From Methylocella tundrae (GTDB lineage: Bacteria > Pseudomonadota > Alphaproteobacteria > Rhizobiales > Beijerinckiaceae): a DNA stretch of 64,000 bases. The notes beneath the pieces were generated by a model, which had not been told where the DNA came from, ran no database searches, and was given only the letters and a program-made list of their open reading frames with translations. Made by a program: the position numbers and the translations under genes. Positions 1,036-8,027 of the stretch are shown in pieces. Positions within the stretch are counted from its first letter, which is position 1, and the number at the start of each line of letters is the position of its first letter. The stretch is from assembly GCF_038024855.1 (NCBI RefSeq), contig NZ_CP139089.1, forward strand, positions 3,685,501 through 3,749,500. Direction: 5' to 3'.

Positions 1036-2724
1036 ATGTCCGTGACCATCAAAGCCGAACAAGGGGAACCGGTCACCGGGACGCGCGCCGCGCTGTACCT
1101 GCGGGTTTCAACGGGCCGGCAGGCCGAAGCCGACCTGTCGATTCCGGATCAGCGGCGGCAGGCGCTGGCCTACTGTGCCAGCCGGGGCTGGGATGTCGCC
1201 ATTGAATTCACCGAACCCGGCGCGAGCGGCATGGATGACCGCCGCCCGGAACTGCAGCGCCTTCTTGAAATGGCGACGACGGACGCCCCGCCGTTTGAAG
1301 TCGTAGTCGTGCATTCCTTCAGCCGTTTCGCGCGCGACCATTTCGCGCTCGAATACCATGTCCGCAGCCTGCGCAAGGCGGGCGTCAAACTTGTCAGCAT
1401 CACGCAGGATCTCGGCGACGATCCGATGAGCGTCATGGTGCGTCAGGTCTTCGCCCTATTTGATGAATACCAGTCGAAGGAGAATGCAAAACACACGCTG
1501 CGCGCCATGCAGGAAAACGCACGTCAGGGATTCTGGAACGGATCGAAAGCGCCATACGGCTATGCGGTTGTCGCCGCCGAACAGCGCGGTGCCAAGACAA
1601 AGAAGCGCCTTGCGATCGATCCCATCGAAGCCGAAGTCGTGCGCCTGATGTTTAGGTTGTTTCGTGAAGGGGACGGCACGTCAGGCCCGATGGGTGTGAA
1701 GGCCGTCACCTGCTGGCTCAACGAGCGCGGCTACCGCACGCGCGTCGGCGCGCGCTGGGGTATCGGCCCCTTACATCAGATTCTCATCCGGGAAACATAC
1801 AAGGGTATGCACCACTTCAACCGGAAGGTCTGGAAGACGAAGGAAGCCAAGCCCGAAGCGGACCAGATCCGCGTTGCCGTCGATCCCATCATCGACGAAG
1901 CCACCTTTGACGGTGTTCAGGCCATGCTCAGGGCGAAAAACCCGAAGGTGACACCCCCGCGGGTTGTCACCGGGCCCATCCTTCTGACCGGCCTCGCCAC
2001 CTGCGCCAGCTGCAATGGCGGCATGACGCTTCGGACCGGCAAATCGGGACGCTACCGCTACTACACCTGCGCCACAGCTGCCCAACAGGGCAAGTCGGCA
2101 TGTCCAGGTCGGTCAATCCCGATGGACAAGCTCGACACGCTCGTGACCGAGCGGATAGCAGACCAGCTGCTGACGCCGGAACGCATTGGCCGCCTGCTTG
2201 GCGGCCTCATGGACCGGCAGGCTGCAAAGAGCGATGACCACGCATCGCGCCTGACCCAGCTGAAGGCAAAAATCGCCGATGCACAGAGCCGCTTGGGCCG
2301 CTTCTATGCCGCCATCGAAAGCGGGGTCGCTGATCCAGGTGATCACACGCTCAAAGAGCGGATCACCGCCGTAAAGACCGAGCGCGATCTGGCTCAGATA
2401 GCGTTTGATCGGGCCGTCGCCGAAACCAACCCGCGTGCCCGGATCACGGACGAAAAGATCGCCGCCTTTGTCGAGGTCATGCGCTCAAACGTGCTGACGG
2501 GGGATACGTCGTTCCGCCGCGCCTACATTCGCTCGGTCATCGACCAGGTCGAAGTCGACGACGCGGAAATCCGCATCCACGGGCGACGGTCAGTTCTTGA
2601 GCGGCTGGTGATGGGCGGCGGGGCGGATCCGGCAGGAGTGCCCAGTTTTGTTCGGAAGTGGCGCACCCGACACGATTCGAACGTGTGGCCTCCACCTTCG
2701 GAGGGTGGCGCTCTATCCAGCTGA
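1036..2724 (+). CDS. Large serine recombinase (resolvase/integrase type)
   Basis: This 562-residue protein is a large serine recombinase that would cut and join DNA through a phosphoserine link. The catalytic serine is in YLRVSTGRQ near residue 25. The resolvase domain spans about 15-165 and includes the SFSRFARD arginine motif. A recombinase domain follows at about 190-300 (KAPYGY, then the RETYKG segment). A zinc ribbon starts at CASCNGG near residue 323 and continues with YYTC and a further Cys. A charged coiled-coil region follows at about 400-460, as in phage-type large serine integrases. The start codon follows a GAGAG-containing leader. Oddly, the last 22 or so codons are antisense to tRNA-Arg(CCG), so the C-terminal tail WPPPSEGG is read from tRNA sequence. 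It is probably the integrase of an element whose junction lies at this tRNA. Confidence 0.9.
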   Translation: MSVTIKAEQGEPVTGTRAALYLRVSTGRQAEADLSIPDQRRQALAYCASRGWDVAIEFTEPGASGMDDRRPELQRLLEMATTDAPPFEVVVVHSFSRFARDHFALEYHVRSLRKAGVKLVSITQDLGDDPMSVMVRQVFALFDEYQSKENAKHTLRAMQENARQGFWNGSKAPYGYAVVAAEQRGAKTKKRLAIDPIEAEVVRLMFRLFREGDGTSGPMGVKAVTCWLNERGYRTRVGARWGIGPLHQILIRETYKGMHHFNRKVWKTKEAKPEADQIRVAVDPIIDEATFDGVQAMLRAKNPKVTPPRVVTGPILLTGLATCASCNGGMTLRTGKSGRYRYYTCATAAQQGKSACPGRSIPMDKLDTLVTERIADQLLTPERIGRLLGGLMDRQAAKSDDHASRLTQLKAKIADAQSRLGRFYAAIESGVADPGDHTLKERITAVKTERDLAQIAFDRAVAETNPRARITDEKIAAFVEVMRSNVLTGDTSFRRAYIRSVIDQVEVDDAEIRIHGRRSVLERLVMGGGADPAGVPSFVRKWRTRHDSNVWPPPSEGGALSS

Positions 2725-2735
2725 GCTACGGGTGC
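2659..2735 (-). tRNA. tRNA-Arg(CCG)
   Basis: The minus strand folds as a full 77-base cloverleaf. The acceptor stem pairs GCACCCG with CGGGTGC, followed by discriminator G and an encoded CCA at 2659-2661. The anticodon stem CCACC/GGTGG closes the loop CTCCGAA, giving anticodon CCG, and the T loop reads TTCGAAT. A TTGACC hexamer sits upstream on the minus strand (2770-2775), but the matching -10 is poor. The 3' half overlaps the end of the plus-strand serine recombinase. The anticodon-stem bases differ from the partial copy at 2986-3027, so the functional copy may have been supplied by an incoming element. Confidence 0.95.
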
Positions 2736-2985
2736 ATCTCAATTTCGCCTAGCCCGACCGACCTATGAGGGTCAACGGATTCGGCCTTCACAAACCAATC
2801 CTACATCGCGGCCGCCGGGCGACTACGCCCCACTATCCGCTGTTCCGCCCCCGTTCTCCGAAAACTGCTTACGCGGTGCTTACGCGAAAATTTCTCGGGG
2901 TTTGGCGGCGTCTGCAGGATTACTCAAGCTACTGTTTTCACGAACCTTTCTTCAGTTACTCACTCACGAAACACCCTTGACATCA

Positions 2986-3260
<275 letters not shown>

Positions 3261-3294: not shown

Positions 3295-4603
3295 TCAGGT
3301 CCCCGCGTTTCCCGACGGCGAAGACTTCCCGCGACCGCTCATCGCAGCGAGGATCTGGGTGCCAATCGCGTCAGCTGCGTGATGCAGTGGCGACGCGGCC
3401 AAATGCGCATAGCGGGCTGTGGTCGAGGGTTGCGCATGACCCAGCAACGCCCCGATCACCGGAAGGCTTAAGCCGCCCGCGGCGCCAACGCTAGCGTAGC
3501 TGTGGCGCAAATCATGAAGCCGGACATTCTTGATCGCCGCCGAAGTGCAGATCCGCTCCCACGGTTTGCGGAGGGAGACAATCGGCTTGCCTGAACGCTC
3601 GCCTGGAAACACATCCTCGGACCCAGGCTGCCGGGTCAACGAGAGGAGCAGGTCGATCGCAGGCTGCGAGAGAAAAACTGACTTGGCGCCCGTCTTGCTG
3701 TCCGGCAGCAAGAGCAACCGTCGCTCAAGATCGACGTGTTGCCAGCGAAGAGCCAGAATTTCGCCAACGCGGCAACCGGTCAACAGCAGGAGCCGTAGCG
3801 CCGCGATCGAAGTTGCGCTACTTGCAGCTACCTTATGCCTCCCACCCATTTTTGTCGATGACGCCTTGGCCAAGTCGTAGCCTAATTCGGCTGCAGATAG
3901 AGCGGCGCCGAGACGGGCTAACTCATCGTTGGAGAGGAACCGCTCCACTTTGTGCTCGGCGTATCGCCTGACGCCCCGGCAGGGGTTGCTCCCTTCCGGA
4001 CGGAGTTTCCAATCCTCGGCGAGCGCGAACATTTTTGAAAGAAGCGCCTGCACTCGGTTCGCGACGATCTCGCCGCCGCGGACTATGCGTCTGCCTTGCC
4101 GCTTGGTTTTCTCGTCCTTTGCCGTCGTGTCGTGGGCGACTTCGCGCATTACCCGCGCGACATCGGTCCGCTCGATCGACTTCACCCGCAGCTTGCCTAC
4201 CAGCGGTATCACGTGGTTTTCGAGATTGCGACGATCTTGGGCGATGCCAGACGGCTTCTTGTGGGGGGATTGCATATTCGTCGAGGTACCGCTGGCCGAG
4301 TTCCGCAACGTTTATGTTCTCTGAGCGCTTTTCCCGAGCTGCGGATGGTGTCTCGCCTGCGGCGACCGGGCCGCGCAGCCGCTGCGCTTCAAGCCGCGCT
4401 TGCTCCGGTGTGACATCGATGCCGTGCCGGCCGATTGTGACCCTGTGGTCCCGGCCCGATCGGCCATATTGAAGGATATAGATTCGGCTGCCCTTAGGCG
4501 TGATTTTGCACCCAAAGCCCGGGAGTTCAGTGTCCCACAGGAAGGCATCGCGCTCGCCGGGCTGCAATCCGTCCACCGTTCGCTTGGTGATTTTTGCACG
4601 CAT
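3295..4603 (-). pseudogene. Tyrosine integrase, broken by a one-base frameshift
   Basis: Read on the minus strand, the gene starts at 4603 behind GGGAGG. It opens with an Arm-type DNA-binding domain (MRAKITKRTV, then GFGCKITPKGSR) typical of P4-like integrases. Reading frame is lost in a run of six C (plus-strand G run 4263-4268). With five bases the frame would join YLDEYAIP directly to HKKPSG and continue through a core-binding domain. The catalytic domain then shows CRVGE (first Arg), HDLRHSY (His-x-x-Arg), GHAQPSTTARYAHL with the second His and the nucleophile Tyr, ending at 3295. All catalytic residues survive, so the lesion is recent, a sequencing slip, or phase variation at the homopolymer. 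It sits between tRNA-Arg scars and tRNA-Phe. Confidence 0.85.
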
Positions 4604-4794
4604 GACAAACCTCCCGCTGCGCAAAGATTGCATCACGAAGGCTGTTTTCTAGCAAGGCGTCAGCAAGGCGGCGGGGGAAAGTTGCCGGATACCGGGCCGA
4701 ATGATGGCGTATCTTACGCAACTGATAAGAACGACGCAGAGCGTCCAAGTGCTTGGTTTATCGAGAGATCGGCGGTAATCGGTGACTGGATGGC

Positions 4795-4870
4795 TGGTGC
4801 CCAGGGGCGGAATCGAACCACCGACACTGCGATTTTCAGTCGCATGCTCTACCAACTGAGCTACCTGGGC
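4795..4870 (-). tRNA. tRNA-Phe(GAA)
   Basis: The minus strand gives a complete 76-base cloverleaf. The acceptor stem pairs GCCCAGG with CCTGGGC, followed by discriminator A and an encoded CCA at 4795-4797. The anticodon stem TGCGA/TCGCA closes the loop CTGAAAA, giving anticodon GAA. The T loop reads TTCGATT. It is intact and is not overlapped by the nearby integrase. Confidence 0.96.
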
Positions 4871-5460: not shown

Positions 5461-5476
5461 TGTCCGAAATCGGACA
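5461..5476 (+). promoter_or_regulatory. NifA-type upstream activator site
   Basis: TGTCCGAAATCGGACA matches the NifA consensus TGT-N10-ACA exactly and is a perfect 7-base inverted repeat around AA. It lies about 90 bases upstream of a sigma-54 promoter at 5564-5580, the usual distance for a NifA enhancer site. Confidence 0.75.
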
Positions 5477-5563
5477 AAAGCGCTGCGCGATTCCAGACGA
5501 TCAGCGCCGCCGCGTCAATGCAACGCGATTCCCCTTGCGGCGCGCCATGAGGCGGCTCCCTGA

Positions 5564-5580
5564 CTGGCATGCTTCCTGCT
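5564..5580 (+). promoter_or_regulatory. Sigma-54 (-24/-12) promoter
   Basis: CTGGCATGCTTCCTGCT carries GG at 5566-5567 and GC at 5578-5579 with exactly ten bases between, as RpoN promoters require. The flanking TGGCA matches the -24 consensus and CTGCT is close to the TTGCT -12 element. Transcription would start near 5592, 70 bases before the first gene. Confidence 0.72.
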
Positions 5581-5661
5581 GTATTCATCTTGATTTCGGA
5601 ACATCCAGCCGCTCGGCGCAACATTGTCGATTGGCCTGTTGCATTCATGACAAGGGCAAAC

Positions 5662-5970
5662 ATGACCTTCGATCTCAAGCAAGAGTGGTCCGCGGCCGAA
5701 GTCAGCGCGCTGCTTGCGTCCGTCGAGGATGATCGGAGCTGGCGCCTCGAAGTGACGGCGGACGGAATTGTTCAACTGAATGATCTTACCATGGTTCCGG
5801 ACGCGGCCCACGAAGACGCTCTCCATTGCTGTTTCGAGGTCTGGGATCAGGGAACTGATTTCGTGGGCGCCGGAGCCGCGAGCGACAAGAACCTGTGCAA
5901 GACGCTCGAGCGGCGCCTGCGGGAAAATTATCCCGCACTCCAGGGAGCAAAGACTCTTTCGGCGCTCTGA
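5662..5970 (+). CDS. Small protein of unknown function, first gene of the NifA/sigma-54 operon
   Basis: This is a 102-residue soluble protein that I do not recognise. It is acidic, rich in Trp, Cys and Asp (WSAAEVSALL, HCCFEVWDQG), and has no signal peptide, membrane segment or clustered metal-ligand motif. The ATG at 5662 follows AAGGGC; an earlier in-frame ATG at 5647 has weaker support. It begins about 70 bases after the predicted sigma-54 start site, and the NifA-type site is above that, so expression under nitrogen-fixing conditions is the best clue to its role. Four more small genes follow on the same strand. Confidence 0.7.
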   Translation: MTFDLKQEWSAAEVSALLASVEDDRSWRLEVTADGIVQLNDLTMVPDAAHEDALHCCFEVWDQGTDFVGAGAASDKNLCKTLERRLRENYPALQGAKTLSAL

Positions 5971-6045
5971 TGAGCGGAAGTTGATTTCCCGGGATCAGGG
6001 CTCCGATCGGATGGCGCGGACGCTTGAAACGAAGAGGCAAGAGAC

Positions 6046-6495
6046 ATGGCATCAAACGACATCGACGTCTTCGTCATCTGCGAGGCGGCAGCCATCGCGC
6101 CCGGCGCCGCCAAGGCGTTCAGCCTGTCCCGCATCAATGACGCCGGCGACCCCGAGACGTTTCCGATCTTCGTCATCCATACGGCTGCGGATGAATATCT
6201 CGGCTATGTGAATGCCTGTCCGCACAAGGGCGTGCTCCTCAATAAGGGCCCGGGAACCTTCTTTACCCAGGATCGGAAACTTCTCGAATGCGGCCAGCAT
6301 GGGGCCATGTTCGACATCGACACGGGCCTGTGCGTCGACGGACCCTGCAAGGCGCAAAGCCTCGAGCCCGTCGCCCTCGCCGTGATCGACGGGGACATCT
6401 GCCTGTGCGGCGTGAAGCTGGTCGAGGATGACGGAATTCCCAATCCCTTTGAAATGCCGGATGACGGCCCTGTGGTGCTGATCGATTCCGACTGA
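6046..6495 (+). CDS. Rieske-type [2Fe-2S] protein
   Basis: The 149-residue protein carries a Rieske centre: CPHKG near residue 60 and CGQHG near residue 82, giving the two Cys and two His ligands. The rest fits a small soluble Rieske ferredoxin, not a ring-hydroxylase terminal subunit or a membrane-anchored bc1 subunit, since no catalytic domain or N-terminal anchor is present. It would carry single electrons in the cytoplasm. It sits second in a cluster behind a NifA/sigma-54 control region, so a role in electron supply to, or protection of, nitrogenase is an inference. About 75 bases separate it from the preceding gene. Confidence 0.85.
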   Translation: MASNDIDVFVICEAAAIAPGAAKAFSLSRINDAGDPETFPIFVIHTAADEYLGYVNACPHKGVLLNKGPGTFFTQDRKLLECGQHGAMFDIDTGLCVDGPCKAQSLEPVALAVIDGDICLCGVKLVEDDGIPNPFEMPDDGPVVLIDSD

Positions 6496-6660
6496 TTGCT
6501 TTCAAACCGTTGCTTAGCCGTACTCGCCAGGAAAGCATATGCGGCCAGACTGTCGTCGACACAAAGCCGGCGGTTTGATCGCGGCGCTGTCACGCCAATG
6601 TCCTGACAGGCAATAGAGTCATGAGAAGCGCGCATCAAAAGGCGCGACAAGGAGTACATG

Positions 6661-6969
6661 ATGGCGGCGGAAACGCACCATAACCATCGGTTTTTCGTTT
6701 CCTACAGTGGCGTCAAGCTGCCGCTCAACCTGGTCAATCCGATTCCTGAAGAGGGGCTGTCAAACCGCAACACCTTCATTCGCGCCTATTTCGATGAGGC
6801 AGGTTTGTTGATTGGCTTCGACAAAGTGGTCTATGGAGAAGTGGAGCTCGCCCACCGCTATGAATATCACGACAACGGCCTGTTGAGCCGCGCGGAGATC
6901 AACATGCTTGACGAAGACGCTGTGACCCTGCGCTTCGATGCCGCCGGAGTTCAGATTTCTGACGCGTGA
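6661..6969 (+). CDS. DUF6156-like, nif-associated small protein
   Basis: A 102-residue protein whose central part (YSGVKLPLNLV, then RNTFIRAYFD and YGEVELAHRYEYH) resembles small conserved proteins found in Azotobacter-type nif regions, which I recall as DUF6156. No function is established. The second of two adjacent ATG codons (6661) is preferred because AAGGAG is six bases before it, against three for the ATG at 6658. The 160-base gap upstream has no clear second sigma-54 promoter. The start of the next gene is close to, or overlaps, its stop. Confidence 0.75.
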   Translation: MAAETHHNHRFFVSYSGVKLPLNLVNPIPEEGLSNRNTFIRAYFDEAGLLIGFDKVVYGEVELAHRYEYHDNGLLSRAEINMLDEDAVTLRFDAAGVQISDA

Positions 6970-6986
6970 TAATTGGGCCATCGGAT

Positions 6987-7154
6987 ATGACAGTTGCTCA
7001 GCTCCTCGAACAGCTCGCCAAAATGCCGGAGGACGCCGTCGTCCTGATGGAAAATGGCGCGGGGCTGTCGCTCATAAGCGGCCTGGATTTTTTTGAGAGC
7101 CAGGGTCCCGGAGCGCCCGCCGAGGTGGTCCTCCTGCCCAATATGAATGAATAG
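6987..7154 (+). CDS. 55-residue protein of the nif accessory cluster
   Basis: A very short protein beginning MTVAQLLEQLAKMPEDA and ending in a hydrophobic strand VVLLPNMNE. It has the look of a compact helix-strand fold and matches no family I can name with confidence. The ATG at 6987 is used; an in-frame GTG at 6966 overlaps the previous stop as GTGA and would add seven residues, which would indicate translational coupling. Its place between the DUF6156-like gene and the rhodanese-ankyrin gene, with tight spacing, supports membership of the same operon. Confidence 0.65.
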   Translation: MTVAQLLEQLAKMPEDAVVLMENGAGLSLISGLDFFESQGPGAPAEVVLLPNMNE

Positions 7155-7214
7155 ATTTCGGATTGGTTCGCGGGGCCGGGAAGCTCGTTGCGCTGCAAAT
7201 TGAGGAGCAATGTC

Positions 7215-8027
7215 ATGAGAGAGCGTATGCCCTTCCGGCGAATTGGCGTCGAAGACGCGCAGGGTCTCCTCACGCAAGGCGCCCTCGTCCTCGATGTTCG
7301 CGACGCGGACAGCTTTCGCAGAGCCCGCATTGACGGCGCCCATAATGTCTCGACCTTCAACCTTTCAACCGTGATCGAGACCACGCCGAAGAACAAGCCG
7401 GTCCTGATCTATTGCTATCATGGCAACGCCAGCCAGGAATATGCGCGGATCCTCTCCGACTTTGGATTTCTTGATGTCTATAGTCTTGATGGAGGATATG
7501 AGGCCTGGAGCGAAACCCTGCGCGCGTCGCCCGGCGTTCCCCTCGATGATGCGGTGCGGCTCTGGCTCGCTGAAAATGGATTTCCGGCTGGCGGCGTGAA
7601 TGCCGCGATCGACAACGGCTCCACGCCGCTGATGAAGGCAAGCCACAAGGGCCGGTGTGACATCGTGCGCCGGCTGATCGCCGCTGGCGCCCAACTCGGC
7701 CTGAAGAATAACGATGGCAATAACGCGCTCTGGCTTGCATGCGTCGGCGCGCATCTTGATGTCATCGACGCGCTGGTCGAAGCAGGCGTTGATATCAACA
7801 ACCGAAACGACAATGGCGCGACGTCGCTGATGTATGCCTCATCGACGGGAAAGGCGTCCGTCGTCGAGCGCCTTCTTCTGGCCGGCGCCGACATTGCCGT
7901 CGAGACGCTGGACGGCTTCAGCGCGCTCGACATGGCGGCGACGGTCGAATGTCTTACCTTGCTGCGAGCGGCTGCGCGTCTGCGTGACGCCGGCGCCGCG
8001 ACGCTGGCGGCGGGCCATCGCGCGTAG
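7215..8027 (+). CDS. Rhodanese-ankyrin fusion protein
   Basis: The 270-residue protein joins an N-terminal rhodanese domain (about 8-110) to a C-terminal block of ankyrin repeats (about 120-245). The rhodanese active loop reads YCYHGNAS, with Cys where sulfur is carried as persulfide. The repeats are visible as STPLMKASHKGR, NNALWLACVGAH and ATSLMYASSTGK, each followed by a helix and a G(A/V)xI turn. The ATG at 7215 follows GAGGAG, so the in-frame TTG at 7188 is rejected. Rhodaneses encoded in nif clusters are thought to help sulfur transfer for iron-sulfur assembly; ankyrins would dock a partner. It closes the operon; a hairpin lies in the 55-base gap to the convergent kpsT-like gene. Confidence 0.88.
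   Translation: MRERMPFRRIGVEDAQGLLTQGALVLDVRDADSFRRARIDGAHNVSTFNLSTVIETTPKNKPVLIYCYHGNASQEYARILSDFGFLDVYSLDGGYEAWSETLRASPGVPLDDAVRLWLAENGFPAGGVNAAIDNGSTPLMKASHKGRCDIVRRLIAAGAQLGLKNNDGNNALWLACVGAHLDVIDALVEAGVDINNRNDNGATSLMYASSTGKASVVERLLLAGADIAVETLDGFSALDMAATVECLTLLRAAARLRDAGAATLAAGHRA

Follow-up and report, generated by a model that had tools for sequence, protein, structure and literature searches.

The five-gene locus and its products

Five genes on the forward strand occupy positions 5662-8027 of a 64-kb stretch of Methylocella tundrae DNA, referred to here as the window. In agreement with a first-pass annotation of the same DNA, they follow a putative sigma-54 promoter in the order g1, Rieske protein, DUF6156 protein, p55, and rhodanese-ankyrin fusion (Table 1). 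Alignment of 16 sequences places the start of g1 at 5662, and the start at 5569 in the list of open reading frames is too early. A single five-gene operon is predicted; the gap between the Rieske and DUF6156 genes measures 162 bp, and three terminator-like sites were observed between 4870 and 8200 versus 3.1 in shuffled sequences. The operon genes are single-copy in the genome and have no second copy in the main nif cluster. nifA, nifB, nifH, nifD, nifK, and nifT score above curated cut-offs at C3:2075-2108 kb of the same genome, so that 1.6 Mb separate the operon from nifHDK and nifA. nifA (C3:2077342-2079093, reverse strand) reaches 727 bits against a TIGR01817 cut-off of 528.85, and a nearby truncated haemoglobin gene has its own NifA-type and -24/-12 sites. 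The earlier statement that the window contains no nifHDK was correct, as searches with the main-cluster nif queries detected nothing homologous within its 64 kb, a result that covers all queries but the faulty nifE and nifX.

Table 1. Genes and predicted control elements of the M. tundrae locus (window positions).
Feature	Position	Strand	Description
Upstream NifA-type site TGTCCGAAATCGGACA	5461-5476	+	exact TGT-N10-ACA; perfect palindrome, 7-base arms
Predicted sigma-54 -24/-12 promoter TGGCATGCTTCCTGCT	5565-5580	+	GG 5566-5567, N10, GC 5578-5579; score 10/12
Second NifA-type site TGTTGCATTCATGACA	5637-5652	+	TGT-N4-T-N5-ACA; downstream of promoter, beside g1 ribosome-binding site
g1	5662-5970	+	102 aa; nothing in Pfam/NCBIfam at E ≤ 1; 207 homologues at E ≤ 1e-3
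Rieske [2Fe-2S] protein	6046-6495	+	149 aa; Pfam PF00355, E 7e-9
DUF6156 protein	6658-6969	+	103 aa; PF19653, E 4e-44, 149 bits vs gathering cut-off 27
p55	6987-7154	+	55 aa, conserved; no Pfam/NCBIfam match above cut-off
Rhodanese-ankyrin fusion	7215-8027	+	GlpE-like; PF00581 E 3.5e-18, plus Ank

The Rieske ligands, C58-x-H60 and C82-x2-H85, are invariant in an alignment of five sequences (own included), in which C12, C96, C101, C119, and C121 are also conserved. The protein shares its domain and cluster ligands with the ferredoxin components of Rieske dioxygenases (PDB 2i7f, 1vck). Unlike these ferredoxins, it is longer, carries the extra conserved cysteines, and falls far under every NCBIfam cut-off, and the five-gene set includes no dioxygenase gene. 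The rhodanese domain matches the single-domain rhodanese GlpE (PDB 1gmx, E 2e-14) with an NCBIfam GlpE score of 83 bits where the cut-off is 102; its loop reads CYHGNAS, with an active-site C67 that is invariant in 14 sequences, and the M. tundrae protein adds a C-terminal ankyrin domain. p55 has the same length in six relatives, at 64-78% identity. The first-pass annotation had named the right family for the third gene but had called it merely DUF6156-like; at the bit score given in Table 1 it is a true PF19653 member.

Alignments drew on 20 of the 120 DUF6156 proteins listed, on 16 of 120 for g1, and on 14 of 120 for rhodanese-ankyrin, each number including the M. tundrae protein. The DUF6156 model (pLDDT 84) matched no solved structure at E up to 0.001, and the top matches of this predicted fold, all above that cut-off, were mostly beta-sheets of teneurin/Rhs and OspA. 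The g1 model was poor (pLDDT 65) and gave no usable structure match, and sequence profiles of DUF6156 and g1 searched against the PDB returned nothing convincing. DUF6156 relatives were looked for in plasmids and viral contigs and none was found. A scan by exact peptide patterns makes only part of the family visible.

Promoter and NifA-type sites

The exact TGT-N10-ACA site and the GG-N10-GC promoter previously reported ahead of the genes were both recovered, at the usual distance of 88 bp from the end of the site to the promoter. Taken singly, either motif is poor evidence, since TGT-N10-ACA occurs six times in the window versus 3.5 expected and the -24/-12 pattern once versus 0.29 expected. 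The 64 kb contain a single pair with a gap of 40-200 bp and a score of at least 10 on a home-made -24/-12 scale with a maximum of 12. First-order Markov simulations gave a mean of 0.04, with any pair in 4 of the 100 runs; with the threshold lowered to 9, the mean rises to 0.29 and 22 of the 100 runs have a pair. Comparison with relatives offers stronger support. A predicted -24/-12 site scoring at least 9 lies 94-111 bp upstream of g1 at all eight loci where g1 comes first (L009, of the same species, excluded), versus 165 of 1621 called genes with one within 200 bp, a baseline of crude gene calls that includes the target loci. Such a site is found at 23 of 28 related loci, in genomes that are not independent of one another, and the putative promoter is conserved across them.

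The first-pass annotation did not contain the element at 5637-5652. NifA recognizes the consensus TGT-N4-T-N5-ACA, and an exact copy is located downstream of the promoter at 6 of the 8 g1-first loci, whereas 23 of the 1621 called genes have any site of this kind within 75 bp; of the remaining two loci, L018 departs by a single mismatch and L020 lacks a good copy. Among 23 related promoters (window and L009 included), ten have the exact site on their 3' side. Three further loci (L021, L043, and L026) joined the baseline comparison post hoc, when their sites had already been seen, and the unpicked figures are those of 6/8 and 10/23. No site follows the promoter at the Rieske-first loci L028, L032, L038, L049, L051, L053, L058, and L063. 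The upstream palindrome is found only in the window and L009 among 28 related loci, both M. tundrae, and any site upstream of the promoter is present at 4 of 23 related promoters, two of them M. tundrae. L013, L014, L055, L021, L043, and L026 have no second exact site within 1200 bp upstream of the gene, and L012 has a single other one, at -1040. At L055, L021, L043, and L026 the site begins 41-92 bp upstream of the gene, clear of the ribosome-binding site. Unexpectedly, the conserved NifA-type site is the one 3' of the promoter. Other enhancer-binding proteins, such as FleQ, are able to act from downstream sites.

It is possible, if unlikely, that this element serves translation, either as part of the ribosome-binding-site context or by forming a leader hairpin, and that only the upstream palindrome counts as a NifA site. 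The right half of the element abuts the ribosome-binding site, a short hairpin could form in some relatives, and an exact site is lacking on the 3' side of 13 of the 23 related promoters; yet the TGT-N4-T-N5-ACA pattern is retained while the arms differ, and the copies in the window, L012, and L014 pair poorly, as judged by eye only. The six loci at which the downstream site is the sole exact one, and the four at which it lies far from the ribosome-binding site, also argue for a NifA site.

Association with nitrogenase genes

In a family sample of 199 genomes, nifH scored over its cut-off in 32 of 35 carriers of DUF6156, 31 of 34 carriers of rhodanese-ankyrin, and 22 of 25 carriers of g1 (Fisher p = 4e-26, 7e-25, and 2e-15, uncorrected for kinship), and all four genes were absent from 156 genomes. 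Distant matches, at about 49-56% identity, make up 22 of the 25 for g1. The expected co-occurrence with nif is therefore borne out. The same three genomes account for the nifH-less carriers of all three genes: one has a full nifD (G170), one has nifD-like pieces (G085), and one matches neither nifH nor nifD (G077). Among the 40 nifH-positive family genomes, DUF6156 is present in 32 and absent from 8, and rhodanese-ankyrin is absent from 9 at the threshold used. The genomes of 35 named DUF6156 loci comprise 28 with nifH over the cut-off, 6 with fragments or sub-threshold matches, and one, a MAG, with none. In the class sample, DUF6156 occurs in 1 of 9 nifH-positive genomes, that of the window itself, and because this fraction is so small the gene set is accessory to nitrogen fixation, not core nif. 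The first-pass annotation had held that homologues scattered in non-diazotrophs without nif linkage would count against its proposal. DUF6156 was found in none of the 261 nifH-less class genomes, and only G077 lacks both nifH and nifD, but nif-cluster neighbours lie within ~5 kb at only 9 of the 34 other family DUF6156 loci; 25 have none, and neither does the window.

The g1-Rieske-DUF6156-p55 block is located inside the nif cluster in Afipia, Bradyrhizobium, Azorhizobium, and a genome of the same genus (G220), mostly followed by truncated haemoglobin. The order in G220 is nifZ-DUF6129-DegT-fdx-u2087-g1-Rieske-DUF6156-p55-globin, ~37 kb from nifH. At L010, L012, L013, L018, and L020 the block lies 0.8-3.1 kb behind nif genes, and at L042 and L039 nifA directly precedes DUF6156, with nifL also ahead at L042. 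The 35 named DUF6156 loci include 14 with nifB, 19 with a Rieske homologue, 16 with p55, and 21 with a truncated-haemoglobin homologue; the absence of nifE and nifX from the locus tables is uninformative, as their queries were cut in the wrong frame. Of the 34 family genomes that carry rhodanese-ankyrin, 13 have it no more than 10 kb from nifH; some of the matches span the ankyrin half only. Where the gene adjoins nifH, a receiver-domain gene precedes it, often together with a gene for a SagB-type oxidoreductase. The NifA/sigma-54 pair is mostly absent before dispersed DUF6156 and rhodanese-ankyrin copies.

Since the block and the rhodanese-ankyrin gene lie in or near nif in relatives, the operon has the appearance of nif-cluster components that have moved. 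We consider it probable that this is an accessory NifA/sigma-54 nif operon set apart in M. tundrae, most likely moved, and composed from two sources. One would be the g1-Rieske-DUF6156-p55 block, found in several relatives between nifB...fdx genes and truncated haemoglobin, and the other the rhodanese-ankyrin gene, found in others beside nifH. NifA on TGT-N10-ACA sites would activate sigma-54 RNA polymerase at 5565-5580; the downstream site appears to be the older, and the palindrome at 5461-5476 would be an addition found in M. tundrae alone. NifA control of the operon is well supported by these sequence comparisons. NifA binding, expression, and all of the biochemistry are what we infer from them, as is the direction of the move, because two genomes of the same genus (G111 and G207) also carry DUF6156 more than 1.5 Mb from nifH. 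The nif support module of the first-pass annotation thus stands, on comparative evidence, in its NifA/sigma-54-type control and its link with nitrogen fixation; its independent satellite gives way to what look like moved nif-cluster parts.

Related arrangements are known from other species. The nif cluster of photosynthetic Bradyrhizobium carries glbO, sufBCDX, and fixABCX (PMC11973431), and the nif clusters of Bradyrhizobium L012 and L013 likewise contain the block, with a truncated haemoglobin gene, presumably glbO, behind it; in M. tundrae, by contrast, the block is far from nifH and adjoins the rhodanese-ankyrin gene. The passages of PMC11973431 considered here name glbO and do not name Rieske, DUF6156, g1, or p55. 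In its predicted control the operon resembles the alphaproteobacterial NifA regulon of Tsoy et al. 2016, in which, in the parts considered, NifA and RpoN operons include new electron-transfer and microoxic-adaptation members (PMC4999443). Its main text, supplements aside, does not mention Rieske, rhodanese, ankyrin, or hemoglobin. By the rule given there, a NifA site is accepted only with a predicted RpoN site downstream, and promoters with a NifA site after them would therefore be dropped. Methanotroph strain 3S-1 is described, in the portion considered, as carrying nitrogenase-related operons, every one of which has a possible NifA motif and a -24/-12 promoter (PMC12727197), as does the M. 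tundrae operon; Rieske, rhodanese, and ankyrin are unmentioned in its main text. One table in PMC5748707 has a Rieske and a rhodanese gene with locus tags far apart. A literature search, with supplements and most subscription journals outside its scope, found no paper on DUF6156, none joining rhodanese and ankyrin (with or without Rieske) with nitrogen fixation or nif, and no description of the operon.

Possible function and alternative readings

Tentatively, the most likely function is to keep nitrogenase and Fe-S proteins functional in the presence of O2 in this aerobic methanotroph. The Rieske protein may pass electrons to truncated haemoglobin for O2 or NO removal, the rhodanese may provide sulfane sulfur for cluster repair, and DUF6156, g1, and p55 would be partner proteins. 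Somewhat less likely is a role centred on sulfur and Fe-S supply, in which rhodanese would deliver sulfane sulfur, the Rieske and small proteins would be carriers or scaffolds for assembly or repair of nitrogenase Fe-S clusters, and the globin would be secondary. This role is consistent with the retained rhodanese cysteine, the presence of GlpE among solved relatives, the five extra conserved cysteines of the Rieske protein, and the position of the block behind fdx and nifZ in relatives. Moreover, in G111 and G075 the rhodanese gene adjoins the Rieske gene away from nif (L097, L098), its frame there broken by TGA. In other relatives, however, the rhodanese gene is outside the block, near nifH, and nine nifH-positive family genomes lack it, as counted above. 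A more far-reaching reading is that NifA activates the g1 operon from the conserved leader site 3' of the sigma-54 promoter, and that the operon encodes a new redox couple of Rieske protein, as reductant, and NifA-controlled truncated haemoglobin, partnered by DUF6156, g1, and p55, which aids N2 fixation by aerobic diazotrophs in O2; that all of this holds together is doubtful.

The operon might also have been cargo of a tRNA-associated integrase island to its left, with no special tie to nif. A tRNA-Phe gene and a tyrosine integrase (two overlapping frames) lie within ~2 kb of the operon, with a serine recombinase and tRNA-Arg farther left. For a second M. tundrae genome, the match to the window (97.6%) runs from 4795 (the tRNA-Phe end) to 16957 (the end of the compared locus), whereas that genome's 8.1 kb to the left of 4795 match nothing in the window. 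The island is missing there and the matching DNA is shared, and therefore the operon belongs to the shared chromosome. Given this, together with direct nif synteny in relatives, the island reading is very improbable and was rejected. Chance motifs ahead of an ordinary operon, a reading to which the commonness of TGT-N10-ACA and of -24/-12 sites lends something, are less probable still, given the rarity of the pair at the score reached and the conservation of the promoter in nif-linked orthologous operons.

The operon links nitrogen fixation with DUF6156 and with two small protein families that lack names, and it touches the question of how nitrogenase is protected in aerobic methanotrophs, which use O2 on methane. 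If the conserved NifA site indeed follows the promoter, regulons predicted by an upstream-only rule would miss operons. Such a site would then depart from the usual position of enhancers in nitrogen fixation, a departure retained in several lineages.

Association with nitrogen fixation

Re-scanning confirmed the upstream NifA-type site, the -24/-12 sequence and the five forward genes to 8027 that the first-pass annotation had placed, and the operon it described is real. At the score reached, 0.04 occurrences of the motif pair are expected per 64 kb; one point lower, the figure is 0.29. Alignment of 16 homologues places the g1 start at 5662, later than an in-frame ATG upstream. The best homologues come from Methylocella, including one named M. 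tundrae, and no description of the operon was found in the searchable literature.

Features of the operon control region and of its left flank (window positions)
Feature	Position	Strand	Remark
Serine recombinase	1036-2724		beside repeat and tRNA-Arg
41-bp direct repeat	2695-2735 and 2987-3027		at tRNA-Arg gene (region 2659-3027)
Tyrosine integrase, two overlapping frames	3295-4308 and 3923-4636	minus	near tRNA-Phe (region 3295-4870)
NifA-type site TGTCCGAAATCGGACA	5461-5476		motif scan
-24/-12 sequence TGGCATGCTTCCTGCT	5565-5580		motif scan
Second exact TGT-N10-ACA site TGTTGCATTCATGACA	5637-5652		motif scan; between promoter and g1; conserved in part of relatives

The suggested tie to nitrogen fixation is well supported at the genome level by co-occurrence with nifH. 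In the family sample (199 genomes), nifH exceeded its cut-off in 40 genomes and DUF6156 occurred in 35, with both present in 32; among the three other DUF6156 carriers, G170 has a full nifD, G085 has nifD-like pieces and G077 has neither. Physical linkage was more mixed in this sample: of 34 further DUF6156 loci retrieved, nif-cluster genes lie no more than about 5 kb away in 9 (L044, L046, L051, L053, L054, L055, L058, L062 and L063) and not in the other 25. Across 35 named DUF6156 genomes, nifH was over the cut-off in 28, present as fragments or sub-threshold matches in 6, and absent from one MAG. The class sample (270 genomes) contains nifH in 9 genomes, and DUF6156 and g1 only in M. tundrae itself. 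This is an accessory trait of some diazotrophs, and neither gene was seen in the nifH-less genomes of the class sample.

The M. tundrae genome (4.42 Mb in three contigs, with the window at C3:3685501-3749500) has a single nifH above the cut-off, located at C3:2089285 in a nif-fix cluster spanning C3:2075-2108 kb. In this cluster nifA, nifB, nifT, nifD and nifK exceed NCBIfam cut-offs, and NifZ, LRV_FeS, DUF6129, DegT, a 2Fe-2S ferredoxin, a SIR2-like protein and a truncated haemoglobin exceed Pfam cut-offs; the remaining gene names were assigned by eye. The SIR2-like domain protein (G000:C3:2087342-2088238) adjoins nifB in relatives, and the truncated haemoglobin, near nifA, has its own TGT-N10-ACA and -24/-12 sites. 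Among the operon genes tested, DUF6156, g1 and rhodanese-ankyrin are single-copy, and no second copy of the operon DNA was found in the main nif cluster.

Gene order and separation from the nif cluster

A DUF6156 alignment scan yielded 35 loci from named genomes, onto which the five operon proteins and the main-cluster proteins were mapped. The order in relatives is nifT-SIR2-nifB-...-LRV-nifZ-DUF6129-DegT-fdx-u2087 (the last a main-cluster gene), then g1-Rieske-DUF6156-p55. It is complete in Afipia (L010), two Bradyrhizobium (L012, L013) and a Rhizobiales MAG (L018), where 0.8-1.3 kb with divergent genes lie between u2087 and g1, and its right half is present in Azorhizobium doebereinerae (L020, gap 3.1 kb) and a Methylocapsa MAG (L014). 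In Roseibium, Rhodoblastus and others the order is Rieske-DUF6156-globin, and g1 has no match. DUF6156 lies directly 3' of nifA in Thiobacillus (L042:8036-10270), with nifL ahead of it, and in a Hydrogenophilales MAG (L039:8188-10028). Fourteen of the 35 loci, some of them short contigs and one (L009) from the same species as the window, show no nif-cluster gene beyond the five operon proteins, globin and weak matches. Many relatives (L055:4118-4765, L013 and others) carry a GST-like gene oriented divergently to the g1 or Rieske operon; it has no match in the window or in the 100 kb surrounding the main nif cluster.

Rhodanese-ankyrin has a second home: in 13 of 34 family-sample carriers it lies no more than 10 kb from nifH. 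In G220 (L119:2082-7570) and Bradyrhizobium (L013:13821-18914) the row of genes divergent from nifH runs receiver-domain protein, SagB-type oxidoreductase, rhodanese-ankyrin; the -24/-12-like site of the L119 row shares its NifA-type sites with nifH. The M. tundrae operon thus unites genes that occupy two nif-linked places in relatives.

Linkage is mixed even within the genus: G220 and G233 are among the nine with nif-cluster neighbours, while DUF6156 lies more than 1.5 Mb from nifH in G111 and G207. G111 and G075, also of this genus, have DUF6156-p55-globin apart from nif (L047, L048) and Rieske adjoining rhodanese-ankyrin at another place, also away from nif (L097, L098; rhodanese-ankyrin is broken by a TGA in both). 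Thus, pieces of the set parted from nif more than once. The simplest interpretation, though no more than that, is that the operon parts began within the nif cluster.

A second M. tundrae genome matches the window between 4795, where the tRNA-Phe gene ends, and 16957, the limit of the fetched locus; it has no match at the same place to sequence left of 4795. The integrase-bearing left flank is therefore absent from this locus there, and the operon lies in common chromosome. The 41-bp repeat looks like an attachment-site duplication.

Promoter and downstream site

In 23 of the 28 related loci, the first gene has a -24/-12 site scoring at least 9 (maximum 12) no more than 330 bp away; examples are CGGCACACTTCATGCA (Afipia, Bradyrhizobium), CGGCATGCTTCATGCA (Azorhizobium) and CGGCACGTTTAATGCA (G220). 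Where g1 comes first, such a site is found within 200 bp in 8/8 loci, compared with 165/1621 called genes. Stand-alone DUF6156 genes of one genus (L056, L065, L066, L070) have TGT-N10-ACA 119-136 bp before the gene and no good -24/-12 site.

An exact TGT-N10-ACA follows the promoter in 10 of the 23 (window, L009, L010, L012, L013, L014, L055, L021, L043 and L026) and precedes it by at least 25 bp in four (87-88 bp in the window and L009, 30 bp in L063, 483 bp in L048). Six of the eight g1-first loci have an exact downstream site, 25 bp before g1 or, in L055, 41 bp; among 1621 called genes, 23 have any such site no more than 75 bp away (binomial 2e-10, assuming an independence that related genomes do not have). 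By contrast, the nine nifH promoters in the fetched family-sample loci each have their sites upstream. Among 22 distant g1 copies outside the block, 18 carry a -24/-12-like site no more than 450 bp away, with an exact TGT-N10-ACA behind it in 11, seven of them from a single genus, and ahead of it in none. We read the downstream TGT-N10-ACA as a putative NifA site, retained through part of the operon's radiation.

Seven distant loci (L078, L079, L080, L082, L083, L104, L105) have a small conserved gene between the -24/-12-like site and g1, and a long palindrome around TGTCGG-N4-CCGACA (TGTCTG in L083) between that gene and g1. This single-genus palindrome could also be a hairpin.

Possible role of the operon

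The Rieske protein keeps its cluster ligands and has five further conserved cysteines, and the rhodanese retains its catalytic cysteine (both by alignment); the DUF6156 model has a beta-rich fold with no convincing relative among solved structures. The commonest partner of the operon genes in relatives is a truncated haemoglobin, a homologue of which is present in 21 of the 35 DUF6156 loci, often directly behind p55 or DUF6156. We tentatively favour a role in removing O2 or NO, for which the Rieske protein would donate electrons, together with sulfur supply, although this assignment is rather less likely to be right than wrong. With good confidence, the set can be regarded as an accessory NifA/sigma-54 nif operon standing apart from its cluster, and the downstream NifA-type site is its one unexpected feature.
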